DNA from: Candidatus Poribacteria bacterium
Lineage (GTDB): Bacteria > Poribacteria > WGA-4E > GCA-2687025
Reading direction: 5' to 3'
Length of the DNA: 35,170 bases
Assembly: GCA_016866785.1 (NCBI GenBank)
Contig: VGLH01000028.1
Coordinates: 1 to 35,170 of the forward strand
Shown here in pieces: positions 18,300 to 25,070 of this stretch. The position numbers and the translations under genes are program-made. A model generated the notes under the pieces. It was not told the origin of the DNA and made no database searches. It worked only from the letters and a program-made list of their open reading frames with translations. Every line of letters begins with the position of its first letter. Within the stretch, counting starts at the first letter, position 1.

Positions 18300-19781
18300 C
18301 TACTGAGACCGTGCTCGCGCAGCCTCCTGCACCATGTCGTAGAAGTCCCTGGCTGCGCGCAACTCGCCCAGGGTCTCATCTCGATGACGGGATTCGCGAA
18401 AGCCCGTCCACGACTCCGCCTGCGCGATCAGGCGCGCGATTGCCTGCTCGAAGAAAAGCGCGTCCCGTTCGACGGCGATAGGATCGGTTCCCATGAAAAC
18501 GTACACCGGGCTCGTCTGCGCGTAGCGCACGTTGCCTTCGTGCCGCTCGAAGCATCGCGCTGCGACCCAGCCGCTGCGAGCGAAGTCGAGTTGGACGCGG
18601 GCTTCCAGTTGGGATTCCCCGGTTCCGCCCTCGTTGCGCGCGACGACCTCGCCGTCGCGCACCAGCTCGACGTAGGCGAGTTCCGTCTGCGAGACGGCGA
18701 CCGCGCGGGCTTCCAGTGTTACTGGTTCGCCTAGCGCGTAGCGCAGCAGACCTCCGGGATCCGCGTCACCCAAGGTCAGGAACAGCATGGGCCCGTTGGT
18801 CGCGAAGCTCCGACCGTTGCGCAGCGCGGTGAACCACCCGTCGTAGGAGAAGTCCTCGTCGAGCCGCACGTAGGTGCGGCAGTAGCCGACCGGCGACGGC
18901 ATGATCCCCGACGCGGAACCGCCCGACGCCGGAAGCCGAATGCCGCAGTTCAGCAGTCGATAGTAGAGGCTCAGAATCCAGAGGGCGAATCCCTCGTCGC
19001 CGACGAACTGGTCGTCCTGGGGAACTGCGCGCCAGCGGCGGGATTCGCGCATCACCTTCTGGCGATGGAAGTGGTTCGGCACAACGCCCATCGAGTCGAG
19101 GTGCCCCAGTGCCGCAGCGATGGGAACGCCCTTCCAGAACGGCTTCTCGCCGTCGATGTGACCGCCCATCGCTCGCGCGAGCGTCGTGTAGTGCGAATCT
19201 GGCGGGTAGAGCGTGTCAGGCTCGCGGATATCGATGGGTTCGCGGAGTCCCAGCAGCAGCGTGGCTCCCATTCCGTCGAAGAGCCGTTCGATCTCGGCGT
19301 CCAACGTCGAGTAGACGGCGACATCGTTCAGTTCGACGCGATCCTGCTCCGGCAGAACCGTCGGCACGGCGTTGTGGATGACGATGTTCGTCCCTAGATT
19401 CAGGTCTTCGGCGAGGACGGCGAGGCGCATGTCTTCGGGACGCCGATGAACGTGCAGATCGCCGGAGTACCAGTGGCAGGAGTTCATCCACACCCATCGA
19501 GAGAGCGTCACGTCACGCAGGATGTCGAAACTACCGACGGCGATGCGCTCTGTGTACGGAACGTACTCCGGGCCCCGCTCGATGCGCAGGTCGTAGGTTC
19601 CCCCTGGAAGGTCTGCTTCGAACCCGCCCTCGGCGAGGAAATGCCGCTCCTCCGAACGCTCAAAGAGGACATGGGGAGACTCCGGCGCTCGAAGCGTCCC
19701 GGCGGCGTCCGTCAGATACGCGCGGAACGCGAGCGGATGCCGCGTGATGTTCTCGCGGACACGGACCGTGAGACGGGGCAT
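18300..19781 (-). CDS. CehA/McbA-type (PHP-fold) metallohydrolase-like protein
   Basis: A 493-residue protein. An N-terminal ~95-residue beta domain precedes a PHP-like metal-binding region beginning 'GDLHVHRRPED' (His110, Asp/His112). 'GHLDSMGVVPNHFH' (~245) and 'GGSASGIMPSPVGYCRTYV' (~300) follow and end in a beta-rich C-terminal part with 'ALRNGRSFATNGPMLFLTL'. That last phrase is typical of CehA/McbA proteins found in Planctomycetes and Poribacteria-like genomes. Characterised members hydrolyse carbamate insecticides, but most family members have unknown natural substrates. No clear signal peptide is present. The start ATG 19781 has GGAGGT six nt upstream. It forms an operon with the Gfo/Idh/MocA gene and faces the ASRT gene across a 119-nt divergent region. 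Confidence 0.82.
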   Translation of the reverse strand: MPRLTVRVRENITRHPLAFRAYLTDAAGTLRAPESPHVLFERSEERHFLAEGGFEADLPGGTYDLRIERGPEYVPYTERIAVGSFDILRDVTLSRWVWMNSCHWYSGDLHVHRRPEDMRLAVLAEDLNLGTNIVIHNAVPTVLPEQDRVELNDVAVYSTLDAEIERLFDGMGATLLLGLREPIDIREPDTLYPPDSHYTTLARAMGGHIDGEKPFWKGVPIAAALGHLDSMGVVPNHFHRQKVMRESRRWRAVPQDDQFVGDEGFALWILSLYYRLLNCGIRLPASGGSASGIMPSPVGYCRTYVRLDEDFSYDGWFTALRNGRSFATNGPMLFLTLGDADPGGLLRYALGEPVTLEARAVAVSQTELAYVELVRDGEVVARNEGGTGESQLEARVQLDFARSGWVAARCFERHEGNVRYAQTSPVYVFMGTDPIAVERDALFFEQAIARLIAQAESWTGFRESRHRDETLGELRAARDFYDMVQEAARARSQ

Positions 19782-19837
19782 GCGGGACCTCCACGTGAAG
19801 ACAGAGGTTACCCGGTTCCCGCGCGCCCGGCAATTCC

Positions 19838-19866
19838 TTGACAGCCTGCCGGCCCGGTGCGACGAT
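19838..19866 (+). promoter_or_regulatory. Possible promoter for the ASRT-domain gene
   Basis: A perfect TTGACA (19838-19843) is followed after 17 nt by GACGAT (19861-19866), a poor -10 box, in the divergent 119-nt region. Initiation would lie about 30 nt before ATG 19901. Only the -35 is convincing. Confidence 0.4.
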
Positions 19867-19900
19867 ACCTCGAGATGTCACGCGAGGAGGGTTCCACGCC

Positions 19901-20614
19901 ATGCTGAGGCAGATCGCCGTTGCGCTCGAAGAATACGATGGATTGCCCGTGCCGATCCAGGGACGACTGCTGAACGATCTAACCGCTGATTGCGCGGCAG
20001 CGATGGGGATCGGCGAGATCGCCGTGATCGGCGACCGGAAGATCATCGCCAACGTGCGCGGTTCGCTGCGGGAGACCGGGCGCGGCATCGTCGGCGTGTC
20101 GTTCGGGCCCCACACGATCCGCATCGACTTCGAGCAGCTTCGAGTGGCAGACGACGGGTACGAGCAGCTTCGGCAGTTGCTCGCGCACTTCGATATGGAC
20201 GGCGACGGCAGCTACATCTGGTTCGTGCCCGACGGATACATGGCGAGCCTGTCCGAGGTCGAGAAGGTCTGGGAGAAGCACGGCGGCGGCTACTTCTCGC
20301 ATGAATCGATCTGCGTGCTGAACACGGCGTCCCGACCGACCGACTGCATCCTGGAAGCGTTCTACGAGGACACGAGCCTGAAGCCGGTGTCGGCTCGCTT
20401 CACGGTTCAGCCGAAGCAGTCCGTTCACTATCGTCTGGACAAGCTGACCGCTGCCGACGGCAGCCCTCTGATCCGCAAGGACGCGCCGACGAGCTACAAG
20501 CTGACGAGTCTGCACACGCGCGTGATCGTCCAGGCGTCGCGGATCCTGACGTCGGGTCGGAGCTCCGAGTTCGGCAGCTTCGGCACGACGATGGCGTGGA
20601 CGCCTGGCGGTTGA
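19901..20614 (+). CDS. Protein with C-terminal sensory-rhodopsin-transducer (ASRT) domain
   Basis: A 237-residue soluble protein starting at ATG 19901, with GAGGAGGG nine nt upstream. Residues ~104-236 match my recollection of the Anabaena sensory rhodopsin transducer family: 'IWFVPDGYM', 'YFSHESICVLNTASRPTDCILEAFYED', 'PKQSVHYRLDKL', 'TRVIVQASRILTS' and 'FGTTMAW'. ASRT was described as the soluble partner of a sensory rhodopsin, but the wider family is proposed to bind small molecules such as sugars. Residues 1-100 form a separate alpha/beta domain ('EYDGLPVPIQGRLLNDL', 'GEIAVIGDRKIIANVRG') that I cannot name. No rhodopsin gene is in the window. The fused histidine kinase gene starts 53 nt downstream, so this protein may be a ligand-sensing accessory of that pathway. 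Confidence 0.75.
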   Translation: MLRQIAVALEEYDGLPVPIQGRLLNDLTADCAAAMGIGEIAVIGDRKIIANVRGSLRETGRGIVGVSFGPHTIRIDFEQLRVADDGYEQLRQLLAHFDMDGDGSYIWFVPDGYMASLSEVEKVWEKHGGGYFSHESICVLNTASRPTDCILEAFYEDTSLKPVSARFTVQPKQSVHYRLDKLTAADGSPLIRKDAPTSYKLTSLHTRVIVQASRILTSGRSSEFGSFGTTMAWTPGG

Positions 20615-20667
20615 TCGGCGCGGCAGAACCCGCGAGCCAAGTCACAGCCCCTAGATGCTCGGACGCG

Positions 20668-23643
20668 ATGATGTCGCATCGCCCGCCGGCTCTACCGACT
20701 CGCTGGAGGATCCGGCACCAGACGGTCGTTCCCTTCGCCGCGCTCATCGTGCTGACGATTGGTCTGACTGCCGCTGCGACCATCGTCCTCCTGAACCGGT
20801 ACGCCGACCGCAGCATCGACCAAGCCCTGAGCCGGATGCTCCGGATGGTGACCACGACCGGCAGCATCTTCGACGCGGCGATGCAGGCGAACATCAAGGA
20901 GACGCTTGGCGCGGATGTCATCACGTCCGACGCCGACGGCACGATCGTGTCGACGACCCTGCCCGGCGCGGACTGGGACCCAGAGACCGGTCGGCAGATT
21001 CATGCTCTGATCCGCGCTGAAGCCCCTCCGAGCTCCTCTCCACGAACTGTCGAAGTGCAGGGCATGACCTATCGGGTTCTGCGGGGATCCGTCCGTCGAG
21101 GCGGGCAGATCGCCTTTGTCACGCTCCTGATGCCGCTCTCGGAGGTCAACCGGACGAAGCGTCAGGTCGCTTGGGCGGTCGTTGCCATTGCCTCGGTCGG
21201 CATTGTGCTGTCGGTCGTCGTCGGGTCTGCCATCGCCCGCACGATCACGACGCCCATCGAAAGACTCGCGTCCGCGACGCGCGAGCTTGCCGACGGCAAC
21301 TGGCAGAGCGCGCCAGAGGTTCGCGGCGCGGGAGAGGTCGTCGAACTCGCCAGCGCGTTCGGTGACATGACCGAACGCCTGCGCCACGCACGCGAAGAGC
21401 TCGTCCAGGCGGAGCGCTTGGCGACTGCGGGTCAGCTCGCGGCGACGTTCGCGCACGAGGTGCGCAACCCCCTGTCGGCGATCAAGCTGATGCTGCAGCT
21501 CGCGGCGGAATCGACGGACGACGAGACCATCGTTCCGTACATCCGCAACAGTCTGGAGGAGGGGGATCGGCTCAACGGGATCGTCGAGGGAATGCTCGAC
21601 TTCTCGCGTCCGGCTCCATTGACCAAGCTGCCGTGCGACCTCGCCGACGTCGTCGAGCGCGAGTACCGCATCGTATCGGAGCGTTTCGCGGATCGACCGA
21701 TCCGGTTCGCGTGCGATGTGCGGAATCGTCCGCGCGTTGTCGTCGACGCCCACGCAGTCGGGCGCGCCATTGCGAACCTGCTGGTCAACGCGGTCGAGGC
21801 GCAGCCGGACGGCGGAGAGGTGAGCGTCTCGCTGGATACCCAGTCGGCGTCGTGCGTTGTCGAGATCGCCGACCGAGGCCCTGGGATCGAGCCGGACGTA
21901 GCGCGCGAGCTCTTCCGACCGTTCTTCACGACGAAGGCTCGAGGCAGCGGGCTTGGGCTCGTGACGTCCAGACGATGCGTCGAGCTGCACGGCGGGTCGT
22001 TGCGGGTCGAGAACCGACCGGACGGCGGCGCGCGAGCTCTTCCGACCGTTCTTCACGACGAAGGCTCGAGGCAGCGGGCTTGGGCTCGTGACGTCCAGAC
22101 GATGCGTCGAGCTGCACGGCGGGTCGTTGCGGGTCGAGAACCGACTGGACGGCGGCGCGCGAGCCGTCATCGAGCTGCCCATCGAGGGTGTGCCTTGAAG
22201 ACCGTACTGGTCATCGACGACGAGACGCGCACCACCTGGGCGTTCGAGAAGTTCCTGTCCGGGGATGGCTACCGCGCGTTGACGGCGAACACGGCGGCGG
22301 AGGGCATCGAACTCGCCCGGTCGGAGAGCCCGGACGCCGTCATCTGCGATCTGCGGCTCCCCGACATGAGCGGCATGGATGTCCTGCGGCGCGTGCGGGA
22401 CCTGCTGCCGAACGCCATCATCATCATCATGACGGCGTACGGCACGGCGCAGACGACCATCGAGGCGATCCAGCACGGGGCGTTCGATTATCTCACCAAA
22501 CCGCTGGACCTGGCGCGCCTGCGAGAGGTTCTGACGCGAGCGGCGCAGGCTCAGCAGGCGCGTGCGCACTCAGCGACCAACGACGTCGAAGCGCCGAGCG
22601 AGGCTTTACCCGCCGTGACACTGGTCGGCGAGAGCCCCGCCATGCTCGACGTCTACAAGCTGATCGGCATGCTGACGACCACGCGCGTCACCGTGCTCAT
22701 CGAGGGCGAAAGCGGCACGGGCAAGGAGCTCGTCGCCCGTGCGATCCACGCGAACAGCCCTTCGCGCGCGAAGCCGTTCACAGCGGTCAACTGCGGAGCC
22801 CTGGCGGAGTCACTCTTGGAGAGGGAGCTGTTCGGTCACGAGCGCGGCGCGTTCACCGACGCCAAGGAGCAGTCGATCGGCAGGATCGAGGCGACGCAGG
22901 ACGGCGCGCTGTTCCTCGACGAGATCGGCAATACCTCGCCTGCCTTACAGGTGAAGCTGCTACGCGCCCTGCACGAGCGGGAGTATCAGCGCGTCGGGGG
23001 CACGCAGACGCTTCCGGTTCGTGCCCGCATCATCGCGGCGACCAACGTCCCGCTGGACATTGCGGTGCGAGAGGGGAAGTTCCGCCGCGATCTCTACTAC
23101 CGATTGAAGGTCGTCTCGGTCAATCTGCCGCCTCTGCGCGAGCGCCGCGCCGATATCCCGCTGCTGGCGCAGCACTTCCTGCGACGCATCGCCGATGAGA
23201 TGGGACAATCCGTCAGCGCGATCGACGGCGACGCCATGGCGCTGCTGATGGCATGCCCATGGTGGGGCAATGTGCGCGAGCTCGAGAACGCGCTGCGGCG
23301 GGCGCTCGTCTTCAGCCGTGGCGGCGTGATCCTGTCGCACCACCTGCCGCCTGAGGTCCGGGAGCCGGTTCCCGGGCAGGAGGTCGAGGGCACGCACGCG
23401 GCGTTCCGGGCTGAACTCGCAGCCGTGGCGCGACGGACCGAGCCGGGGCAGGTCTACCGCGACGTCCTCGCGCTCTTCGACCGGGCGATGATCGAGTACG
23501 GGCTCCATGCGGCACGTGGGAACCAGGTTCGCGCCTCGCGCTTGCTTGGGATCAGCCGGACGACCTTGCGGCAGCGAATGAAGGACCTTGGCATCGTCGG
23601 ACCCTCCGACGACGATCCATCCACCGACGAAGAGACGCCATGA
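20668..23643 (+). CDS. Histidine kinase fused to NtrC-family sigma54 response regulator (fusion caused by 127-bp duplication)
   Basis: One 991-residue frame. Kinase part: TM1 ~22-43, extracytoplasmic sensor ~44-165, TM2 ~167-190, HAMP ~190-245, HisKA with 'FAHEVRNPLS' (His263), and HATPase_c with the N box 'NLLVNAVEA', G1 'DRGPGI' and G2 'GSGLGL'. Residues ~453-509 are out-of-frame sequence from the second repeat copy. From ~510 comes a normal regulator: receiver (phospho-Asp 'CDLRLPDMSG'), AAA+ domain (GESGTGKE; the sigma54 loop reads GAFTDA; 'WWGNVRELEN') and a Fis-type helix-turn-helix. Without the duplication the kinase would end at TGA 22196-22198, overlapping a separate regulator start. 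The duplication's length (3n+1) instead opens the frame into the regulator. The start at ATG 20668 is chosen because an ATG at 20596 lies inside the previous gene. The stop overlaps the pyk ATG. Confidence 0.8.
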   Translation: MMSHRPPALPTRWRIRHQTVVPFAALIVLTIGLTAAATIVLLNRYADRSIDQALSRMLRMVTTTGSIFDAAMQANIKETLGADVITSDADGTIVSTTLPGADWDPETGRQIHALIRAEAPPSSSPRTVEVQGMTYRVLRGSVRRGGQIAFVTLLMPLSEVNRTKRQVAWAVVAIASVGIVLSVVVGSAIARTITTPIERLASATRELADGNWQSAPEVRGAGEVVELASAFGDMTERLRHAREELVQAERLATAGQLAATFAHEVRNPLSAIKLMLQLAAESTDDETIVPYIRNSLEEGDRLNGIVEGMLDFSRPAPLTKLPCDLADVVEREYRIVSERFADRPIRFACDVRNRPRVVVDAHAVGRAIANLLVNAVEAQPDGGEVSVSLDTQSASCVVEIADRGPGIEPDVARELFRPFFTTKARGSGLGLVTSRRCVELHGGSLRVENRPDGGARALPTVLHDEGSRQRAWARDVQTMRRAARRVVAGREPTGRRRASRHRAAHRGCALKTVLVIDDETRTTWAFEKFLSGDGYRALTANTAAEGIELARSESPDAVICDLRLPDMSGMDVLRRVRDLLPNAIIIIMTAYGTAQTTIEAIQHGAFDYLTKPLDLARLREVLTRAAQAQQARAHSATNDVEAPSEALPAVTLVGESPAMLDVYKLIGMLTTTRVTVLIEGESGTGKELVARAIHANSPSRAKPFTAVNCGALAESLLERELFGHERGAFTDAKEQSIGRIEATQDGALFLDEIGNTSPALQVKLLRALHEREYQRVGGTQTLPVRARIIAATNVPLDIAVREGKFRRDLYYRLKVVSVNLPPLRERRADIPLLAQHFLRRIADEMGQSVSAIDGDAMALLMACPWWGNVRELENALRRALVFSRGGVILSHHLPPEVREPVPGQEVEGTHAAFRAELAAVARRTEPGQVYRDVLALFDRAMIEYGLHAARGNQVRASRLLGISRTTLRQRMKDLGIVGPSDDDPSTDEETP
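21901..22154. repeat. Perfect-period 127-bp tandem duplication in the kinase gene
   Basis: Copy 1 is 21901-22027 and copy 2 is 22028-22154. They differ at one base (C at 22019, T at 22146). The ten-base word GCGCGCGAGC occurs at 21901, 22028 and 22155. The ancestral gene therefore had two such words 127 bp apart, and the duplication probably arose by slippage or unequal exchange between them. The repeat encodes the end of the HATPase_c domain, from 'ARELFRPFFTTKARGSGLGL' to 'VENRPDGG'. Confidence 0.95.
22195..23643 (+). CDS. NtrC-family response regulator, alternative separate translation start within the fused frame
   Basis: TTG 22195 overlaps the ancestral kinase stop (TTGA) and has GAGGG six nt upstream, so the regulator is probably still made as its own 482-residue protein even in the fused allele. 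Receiver ~1-120 with acidic Asp8/Asp9, phospho-acceptor Asp52, Thr80 in 'IMTAYG' and Lys102. AAA+ domain ~140-375 with GESGTGKE at 171-178. The sigma54-contacting loop is GAFTDA (218-223) instead of GAFTGA, a variant seen in other enhancer-binding proteins. C-terminal Fis-type HTH at ~445-470 ('ASRLLGISRTTLRQRMKDLG'). It would activate sigma54 promoters on phosphorylation by the adjoining kinase. Its targets are not evident. Confidence 0.7.
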   Translation: MKTVLVIDDETRTTWAFEKFLSGDGYRALTANTAAEGIELARSESPDAVICDLRLPDMSGMDVLRRVRDLLPNAIIIIMTAYGTAQTTIEAIQHGAFDYLTKPLDLARLREVLTRAAQAQQARAHSATNDVEAPSEALPAVTLVGESPAMLDVYKLIGMLTTTRVTVLIEGESGTGKELVARAIHANSPSRAKPFTAVNCGALAESLLERELFGHERGAFTDAKEQSIGRIEATQDGALFLDEIGNTSPALQVKLLRALHEREYQRVGGTQTLPVRARIIAATNVPLDIAVREGKFRRDLYYRLKVVSVNLPPLRERRADIPLLAQHFLRRIADEMGQSVSAIDGDAMALLMACPWWGNVRELENALRRALVFSRGGVILSHHLPPEVREPVPGQEVEGTHAAFRAELAAVARRTEPGQVYRDVLALFDRAMIEYGLHAARGNQVRASRLLGISRTTLRQRMKDLGIVGPSDDDPSTDEETP

Positions 23644-25070
23644 CTCGGAATCAGACGCTGTGCCCGACCAAGATCGTATGCACGCTGGGACCAGCCACCA
23701 ACTCGAAAGAACGCGTGCGAGAGCTGGTCGAGGCAGGGATGGATGTCGCGCGACTGAACTTCTCGCACGGCACGCACGACGACCATCGGTGCAGCATCGA
23801 GTGGGTCCGAGAGGTCGCCCGCGATGCGGGCATCTACGTCGCCATCCTTCAGGACCTGTGCGGACCCAAGATACGCACTGGACCGATGACTAGCGGCTCC
23901 GTTCCGCTGACGGCAGGGGCCGTCTTCACGCTGACGTCGCGCGAGACGCCCGGTTCACCCGACGAAGTGTCGCTCAACTACGCGGGTCTCGTCAGCGAGC
24001 TGGAGCCGGGAGATGTCGTCCTCCTCGCGGATGGGGCGCTGGAGCTCCGCGTCGAACGCACGACGGAAACGGACGCCGTCTGCCGTGTCATCGCAGGCGG
24101 CGAGCTCGGTTCGCACAAGGGGATCAGTGTGCCGGGTCGAGTCCTCGCTCTGCCATCGATGACGGCGAAGGATCGCGCGGACTTGGAGTTCGGGTTGCGG
24201 CACGAGGTCGATTGGGTGGCGCTCTCGTTCGTCCGCGCGGCTTCGGATGTCGCGGAGGCGCGTCGCGCCATGGGCTCGCCGTCGCGCGCAGCGCCGATCA
24301 TGGCGAAAGTCGAGAAGGCGGTGGCACTGGGCGAGCTCGACGCGATTCTCATGGAAGCCGACGGCGTGATGGTCGCTCGCGGCGACCTGGGAGTCGAGAT
24401 CCCGATGGAAGAGGTCCCGTGGGTTCAGAAAGACATCATCCGCAAGGCGAACTTCGCCGGGATGCCCGTCATCACGGCGACGCAGATGCTGGAGTCGATG
24501 ATTTCCAGTCCGAGACCGACGCGCGCCGAGATGACCGACATCGCGAACGCCATCCTCGACGGGACCGACGCGGTCATGCTCTCCGCCGAGACCGCCGTCG
24601 GAGCCTACCCCGTGCAGGCGGTCCGCACGATGAACGAGATCGCTCGCGCGGCTTCTGCTCACGCCCTTGCCGAGAGCCGAGCCCGCGCCGCGCCCCTGAG
24701 CGCTTCGTCCGACATTTCGGATGCGATCAGCCGTGCGGCGTGTCAGATGGCGGCGGCTGTGCAAGCGCGGTTCATCATCTGCTGCACCCGGTCGGGTCAG
24801 ACGGCGAGGAGCGTTGCGAAGTGCCGTCCTCCCATGCCGATCGTCGCTGCCAGCCACCACGAGCGCGTCCTACGGGGCTTGCAGCTCTGCTGGGGTACGG
24901 TTCCTGTGAGGATCGACGCGCCGTCGGATACGGACGACATGGTCGCTAAGGCGAAGCGAGCCGTATTGTCCAGCGGCATGGGTCGGTACGGCGACCGCGT
25001 GGCAATCGTCGCAGGAACGCCCCTATCGGTCGAGGGCACCACGAACACGGTCAAGCTCGACGTGCTGTAG
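23640..25070 (+). CDS. pyk: Pyruvate kinase
   Basis: A 476-residue glycolytic enzyme converting phosphoenolpyruvate and ADP to pyruvate and ATP. The N-terminal 'PTKIVCTLGPATNS', the substrate-site 'MDVARLNFSHGTHDDH', the catalytic-Lys signature 'PIMAKVEKAVALGELDAILMEADGVMVARGDLG', and 'ITATQMLESMISSPRPTRAEMTDIANAILDGTDAVMLSAETA' are all present and in order. The C-terminal regulatory domain follows, without the extra PEP-utiliser domain found in some Bacilli. Its ATG overlaps the response-regulator stop (ATGA), so it is translationally coupled to the two-component genes, an unusual partnership that could tie its expression to that signal. It converges on the ABC permease gene with 21 nt between stops. 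Confidence 0.96.
   Translation: MTRNQTLCPTKIVCTLGPATNSKERVRELVEAGMDVARLNFSHGTHDDHRCSIEWVREVARDAGIYVAILQDLCGPKIRTGPMTSGSVPLTAGAVFTLTSRETPGSPDEVSLNYAGLVSELEPGDVVLLADGALELRVERTTETDAVCRVIAGGELGSHKGISVPGRVLALPSMTAKDRADLEFGLRHEVDWVALSFVRAASDVAEARRAMGSPSRAAPIMAKVEKAVALGELDAILMEADGVMVARGDLGVEIPMEEVPWVQKDIIRKANFAGMPVITATQMLESMISSPRPTRAEMTDIANAILDGTDAVMLSAETAVGAYPVQAVRTMNEIARAASAHALAESRARAAPLSASSDISDAISRAACQMAAAVQARFIICCTRSGQTARSVAKCRPPMPIVAASHHERVLRGLQLCWGTVPVRIDAPSDTDDMVAKAKRAVLSSGMGRYGDRVAIVAGTPLSVEGTTNTVKLDVL

Follow-up and report, generated by a model that had tools for sequence, protein, structure and literature searches.

The window, by which we mean the whole stretch of 35,170 nucleotides that was analysed, carries at 19901..20614 of the forward strand a two-domain ASRT gene of 237 aa, designated P0001, which was recognized by reading of the ORF and by relatives that match over both domains. 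The ORF runs from the ATG at 19901 to 20614, the last base of the stop codon, and a likely ribosome-binding site, GAGGAGG (19884..19890, forward strand), was read from the sequence 5' of this ATG. Since at least 90% of 17 aligned members keep M1 as given by the ATG, the alternative start TTG at 19838 is less likely. On the same strand, P0001 comprises an unnamed N-terminal domain (aa 1-97, 19901..20191) and an ASRT domain (PF07100; aa 103-233, 20207..20599), which includes the predicted ligand motif SHESICVLN (aa 133-141, 20297..20323). No signal peptide was seen by eye, and the protein is probably intracellular.

The annotation of neighbouring genes in the window covers about 11-27.6 kb. The divergent neighbour of P0001 encodes a CehA/McbA family metallohydrolase (18300-19781, reverse strand; NF038032, 131.6 bits). 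The product of the gene 3' of P0001 contains HAMP, HisKA and HATPase domains and, by eye, two hydrophobic segments with about 130 aa between them, and was correctly called a membrane histidine kinase in the sequence-only reading that preceded this work. The kinase gene occupies 20668..22180 of the forward strand (start, ATG 20668, and end approximate) and is followed on that strand by an NtrC-type response regulator with receiver, sigma-54 AAA+ and Fis-type HTH domains (22183..23643, start approximate) and by pyruvate kinase (23640..25070), a conserved neighbour of this two-component system. Sequence comparison revealed a 127-bp direct tandem duplication (99%; 21901..22154, forward strand) at the kinase/regulator junction, at which the two frames run together as a single ORF of 1015 aa; the duplication may be real or an assembly artefact. 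In three related loci (L114-L116), separate ORFs encode the kinase and the regulator.

The two halves of P0001

The assignment of the C-terminal half to the ASRT family was borne out by the PF07100 search, in which aa 103-233 of P0001 matched with an E-value of 9.5e-15 and 55.1 bits (cut-off, 25). P0001 is the sole PF07100 match of its genome (E 0.001), and its best PDB match is TM1070 (1nc7), with an E-value of 5.7e-8, or 3.3e-13 when the family profile was used. The template-free model of P0001 was poor overall (mean pLDDT 48). Foldseek returned 19 matches to this model at E <= 0.001, all of them TM1070 or Anabaena ASRT chains; the modelled C-half matched 1nc7 with an E-value of 7.2e-6 and a TM-score by target of 0.72, a fold match that is a weak basis because the block-mean pLDDT is at least 60 only at about aa 131-210. 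As modelled, the C-half has the TM1070-like beta-sandwich fold of the PF07100 family.

Conservation is concentrated in this half. Among 17 aligned members, namely that of the window and 16 relatives that include one of the three planctomycete genes, 50 columns are invariant, 49 of which fall within the ASRT half. The early Trp, W107, is invariant, and the invariant polar residues include H134, E135, C138, H176, R178, D180, K193, Y199, Q211 and R214. The motif SHE[SA]xCxxN is present in all 39 distinct two-domain genes examined, out of 68 two-domain genes found in all; four duplicates (L043, L044, L045 and L051, equal to L023, L027, L029 and L031) were counted once. The same type of predicted ligand motif occurs in 8/10 solo ASRT genes.

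P0001 resembles the intracellular ASRT/ASRAH group (PF07100; TM1070, 1nc7; Anabaena ASRT, 2ii7) in its profile match and in the modelled fold of its C-half, and shares with the ASRT-like proteins the conserved W, the HExxCxxN-type motif, VQxxR and the lack of a visible signal peptide. It differs from them in its N-terminal addition of ~97 aa and in that no rhodopsin match was found in its genome. The latter agrees with the earlier remark that no rhodopsin lies nearby, and is to be read as weak, since PF01036 matched nothing in the genome, of which the window is part, and the control matched nowhere. Family members in bacteria without rhodopsin are already on record (De Souza, Iyer and Aravind 2009, PMC2739507). 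ASRT-like proteins are described there as stand-alone intracellular beta-sandwiches, whereas the N-domain accompanies the ASRT half in 65 genomes of the window's phylum and in 3 of Planctomycetota; the two-domain form is thus a variant of a known group which is solo as described in that paper. No fused ASRT-like version was found in those parts of the literature on sensory rhodopsin transducer that were at hand. The actinobacterial ASRAH lipoproteins with flanking extensions and the amidase-fused ASRAH proteins, as presented in PMC2739507, likewise join ASRAH to other sequence; they are secreted, have two or four copies and carry other ligand residues, whereas P0001 has a single ASRT-like copy. 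The ASRT of Sinorhizobium medicae pMl3, which lies in a sugar operon, has the ASRT domain in common with P0001 (36% identity over 48% of the query) but is solo, with two copies of 125 and 130 aa in a locus that also has thiamine pyrophosphate-binding and alpha-amylase genes nearby. Compared with solo ASRT genes, the two-domain genes have an insertion between PDGYM and YFSHES, and their C-terminal segment reads Q(G/A)SRILTSGxxSxFxSFGT, in contrast to Q(H/F)xRxDxxQ in the 10 solo genes compared.

The N-terminal ~100 residues had been regarded as a separate unnamed domain, and searches of Pfam, NCBIfam and PDB profiles support this, none giving a match beyond chance level. No Pfam family matched aa 1-97 of P0001. 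When the N-domains of 25 members were searched, Pfam gave six weak matches at chance level (best E 0.011), the commonest being DUF7698 in 3/25 members, and a profile search of the PDB gave no match better than E 0.31. NCBIfam had no match to P0001 and, for the 17 members, three one-member matches only (E 0.086-0.24). The N-domain is present in all 17 aligned members. Its identity to the window among eight listed relatives is 19-40%, and that of the C-domain is 60-73%. When 36 distinct genes from the phylum of the window were compared, 94 of 630 pairs gave a dS that was usable for either half; in these pairs, dN/dS has a median of 0.25 (maximum 0.57) in the N-domain and of 0.046 (maximum 0.32) in the ASRT domain. 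Therefore, both halves are under purifying selection; the N-domain evolves faster than the ASRT half.

An N-domain profile built from 25 sequences recovered the same 65 two-domain genes from 386 genomes (E 0.01), and no intact N-domain was found stand-alone or in another fusion among the genomes searched by this profile. It also matched one broken remnant of 54 codons in G013, a second copy of the N-domain with in-frame stops (L102, about 2001-2162). Beyond the phylum, two matches with E-values of 0.0015 and 0.0086 were dropped as unrelated frames; to judge by the translations, one is a molybdopterin-biosynthesis-like protein and the other a low-complexity frame. For the N-domain, AlphaFold2 gave block means of pLDDT of 26-43 in one model and a mean of 50 in another, each prediction having only two sequences as input, and we claim no fold for this domain because of the low confidence.

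The adjacent two-component system

It had been suggested from the sequence that P0001 may be a ligand-binding input module for the adjacent two-component system. P0001 and the kinase lie on the same strand with a gap of 53 bp (taking ATG 20668 as the kinase start) and no terminator-like site was found in 19700-20800, so co-transcription is possible; the cluster, moreover, runs on into pyruvate kinase, a sugar-metabolism gene. However, the linkage to the kinase does not recur in the loci examined. With one kinase sequence as the query, tblastn (E 1e-4) detected no homologue of the kinase core in the 26 other ASRT loci compared, of which 23 are two-domain and 3 are solo; these loci were searched up to about 8 kb per side, several being shortened by contig ends. 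The receiver domain was likewise found in 0/26, and the sigma-54 domain in 1/26, near the solo ASRT gene of L071.

Kinase orthologues were sought in six genomes of the window's family, the window's own included. In G002, G004 and G005, they cover aa 11-441 of the 441-aa query at 39-40% identity, and in all three genomes they lie on contigs (C29, C32 and C12) apart from those of the ASRT genes (C18, C357 and C142), with no ASRT gene within ~5 kb either side. An orthologous regulator (57-61%) and then pyruvate kinase (54-57%) follow 3' of the kinase in each. The kinase match was partial and weaker in G001 (64% complete), and in two pieces on separate contigs in G003 (61% complete, no ASRT match). 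Since the kinase orthologues keep the regulator and pyruvate kinase and do not keep the ASRT gene, the two-component system belongs with pyruvate kinase. Among the genomes examined, the kinase beside an ASRT gene is peculiar to that of the window, where P0001 may be co-transcribed with it through chance gene order. Furthermore, the kinase has a region of its own, the ~130 aa between its hydrophobic segments, which could be its sensor. The order kinase, NtrC-type regulator, pyruvate kinase is common to the window (20668-25070) and L114, L115 and L116, and suggests that the kinase-regulator pair controls, or is controlled by, pyruvate kinase.

Distribution and neighbours of the two-domain genes

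In the window's phylum, 66/84 genomes gave a match (E 0.001), 65 of them over both domains; the 66th, in G076, ends at a contig end. Each of these genomes has one match, the G013 remnant aside, and all six genomes of genus g14 are without a two-domain ASRT gene. In other phyla, 4/302 genomes matched, over the ASRT half only and with no two-domain gene (survey of 386 genomes, E 1e-5). Nine of 392 sampled genomes of Planctomycetota matched, that of L032 included, three with two-domain genes and six with genes reading as solo; outside the window's phylum, all ASRT matches but the three planctomycete ones read as solo. In these wide surveys, at most 7 candidates per genome were scored, which may have left weak solo ASRT genes undetected. 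No relatives were found in a scan of viral contigs, and a genome contig scan with a single sequence, which is insensitive, covered 60 stretches and gave one relative, L032. Two tiny phyla (1 and 4 genomes) gave no match, samples too small to be informative.

In a tree of 49 ASRT domains (39 two-domain, 10 solo), the two-domain genes were placed on one side of a branch with support of 100/99, and this branch has a long stem. The two-domain ASRT is a real variant of the family. The three planctomycete genes group with L004 and L005 of the window's family, with support of 95/78, under the star threshold of the tool. These sequence relationships suggest that the two-domain gene may have been transferred between the window's phylum and Planctomycetota.

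The immediate neighbours of ASRT genes differ between lineages. They include a BNR-repeat protein (L033), GcvT (L047), a beta-lactamase-fold hydrolase (L036), an M16 peptidase (L035) and, slightly below the Pfam cut-off, a HAD-like hydrolase (L043). In family f2, the same small protein (~108-144 aa) is encoded directly upstream of ASRT in all 11 loci fetched at length (L037-L042, L045 and L049-L052); the one member scanned had no Pfam match. The three planctomycete two-domain loci (L032, 4284-7195; L067, 7306-10160; L068, 6437-9333) all have a Pfam Sulfatase family hydrolase directly upstream, that of L067 being assigned by 80% identity to that of L032 and not by Pfam, and a related protein of 204-235 aa directly downstream, which has no Pfam match above cut-off and ends in 'IQxRLEDLGY'. 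In these hydrolases, a Thr apparently stands at what we take to be the position of the catalytic Cys/Ser of the sulfatase motif.

A homologue of the window's Gfo/Idh/MocA gene was found near 2/20 other ASRT loci of the window's phylum and near 3/3 planctomycete two-domain loci. The former count means little because the window genome alone (G000, 4.35 Mb) has 114 Gfo/Idh/MocA matches, a high count, and each of six genomes of the phylum has 60-137. A sugar linkage through these neighbours was therefore rejected for the window's phylum, the background being too high; once it is counted, the neighbours there show no clear sugar specificity. In Planctomycetota, with 52-76 matches per 6.6-7.5 Mb, the proximity to the two-domain loci is more telling than in the window's phylum, with n=3.

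Function of the two-domain protein

Since the predicted ligand motif and the invariant polar residues are kept, P0001 is read as a sensor of the type proposed for the family. ASRT-like proteins have been proposed to bind sugars by means of the H and C in SHEshChhN and to exert regulation through protein contact (PMC2739507). We propose, giving it about an even chance of being right, that P0001 is an intracellular sensor of a small molecule, probably a sugar, to which a lineage-specific docking or assembly domain has been added. The ligand of the ASRT half would be a small metabolite and, as put forward for the family, most likely a sugar or a derivative of one; the N-domain, for which we infer a docking or assembly role, would dock on the regulated protein or set the oligomer; and ligand binding would be relayed by protein contact via the N-domain. 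For a member of the ASRT-like group, a homotetramer with a small-molecule pocket would be expected. That the ASRT half is so strictly conserved while its neighbours change points to one ligand or target of a general kind, and less to a local control of each operon.

The polar residues of the ASRT half are conserved strongly enough to fit an enzyme as well, in which they would form an active site for a widespread metabolite, with the N-domain completing or regulating this site. The confinement of nearly all invariant columns to the ASRT half, the low dN/dS of that half and the single intact copy per genome among neighbours that are not fixed are all compatible with such a role. However, no enzyme family was detected by Pfam or NCBIfam, and those passages of De Souza et al. 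(PMC2739507) that deal with ASRT-like proteins and were at hand make no mention of catalytic activity; we consider an enzyme rather unlikely. A nucleic-acid-binding regulator, by analogy with Anabaena ASRT, for which DNA looping has been reported from a single-molecule assay (PMC8660804), appears more doubtful: the median pI is 4.7 for each half in 39 genes, only 1/39 per half is net positive, and no known DNA-binding domain was detected by Pfam. P0001 itself departs from the acidic majority in that its C-half is close to neutral (pI 7.1), but DNA binding is less favoured because most members are acidic. That P0001 is an input or accessory module signalling to the adjacent kinase is very improbable in view of the missing linkage; of the earlier proposal, ligand binding stays plausible by the motif in 39/39 genes, and the input to this two-component system does not stand.

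The reading of P0001 as a family-type sensor with an added domain can be extended, in a form that we think unlikely. Proteins of the P0001 type would be a core regulator of the whole lineage, with an N-domain that has a new fold and docks on enzymes of central metabolism, thereby providing a phylum-specific allosteric control by a separate subunit that senses one general metabolite, and the gene would later have been passed to a few Planctomycetota.

The removal of the adjacent kinase, which belongs with pyruvate kinase, takes away a false lead. The ASRT family is named after rhodopsin, and in the sources drawn on here its ligand is so far a proposal. The two-domain ASRT is strictly conserved and present in a single intact copy in each genome that has it, which makes it well suited to a search for the ligand and the target.
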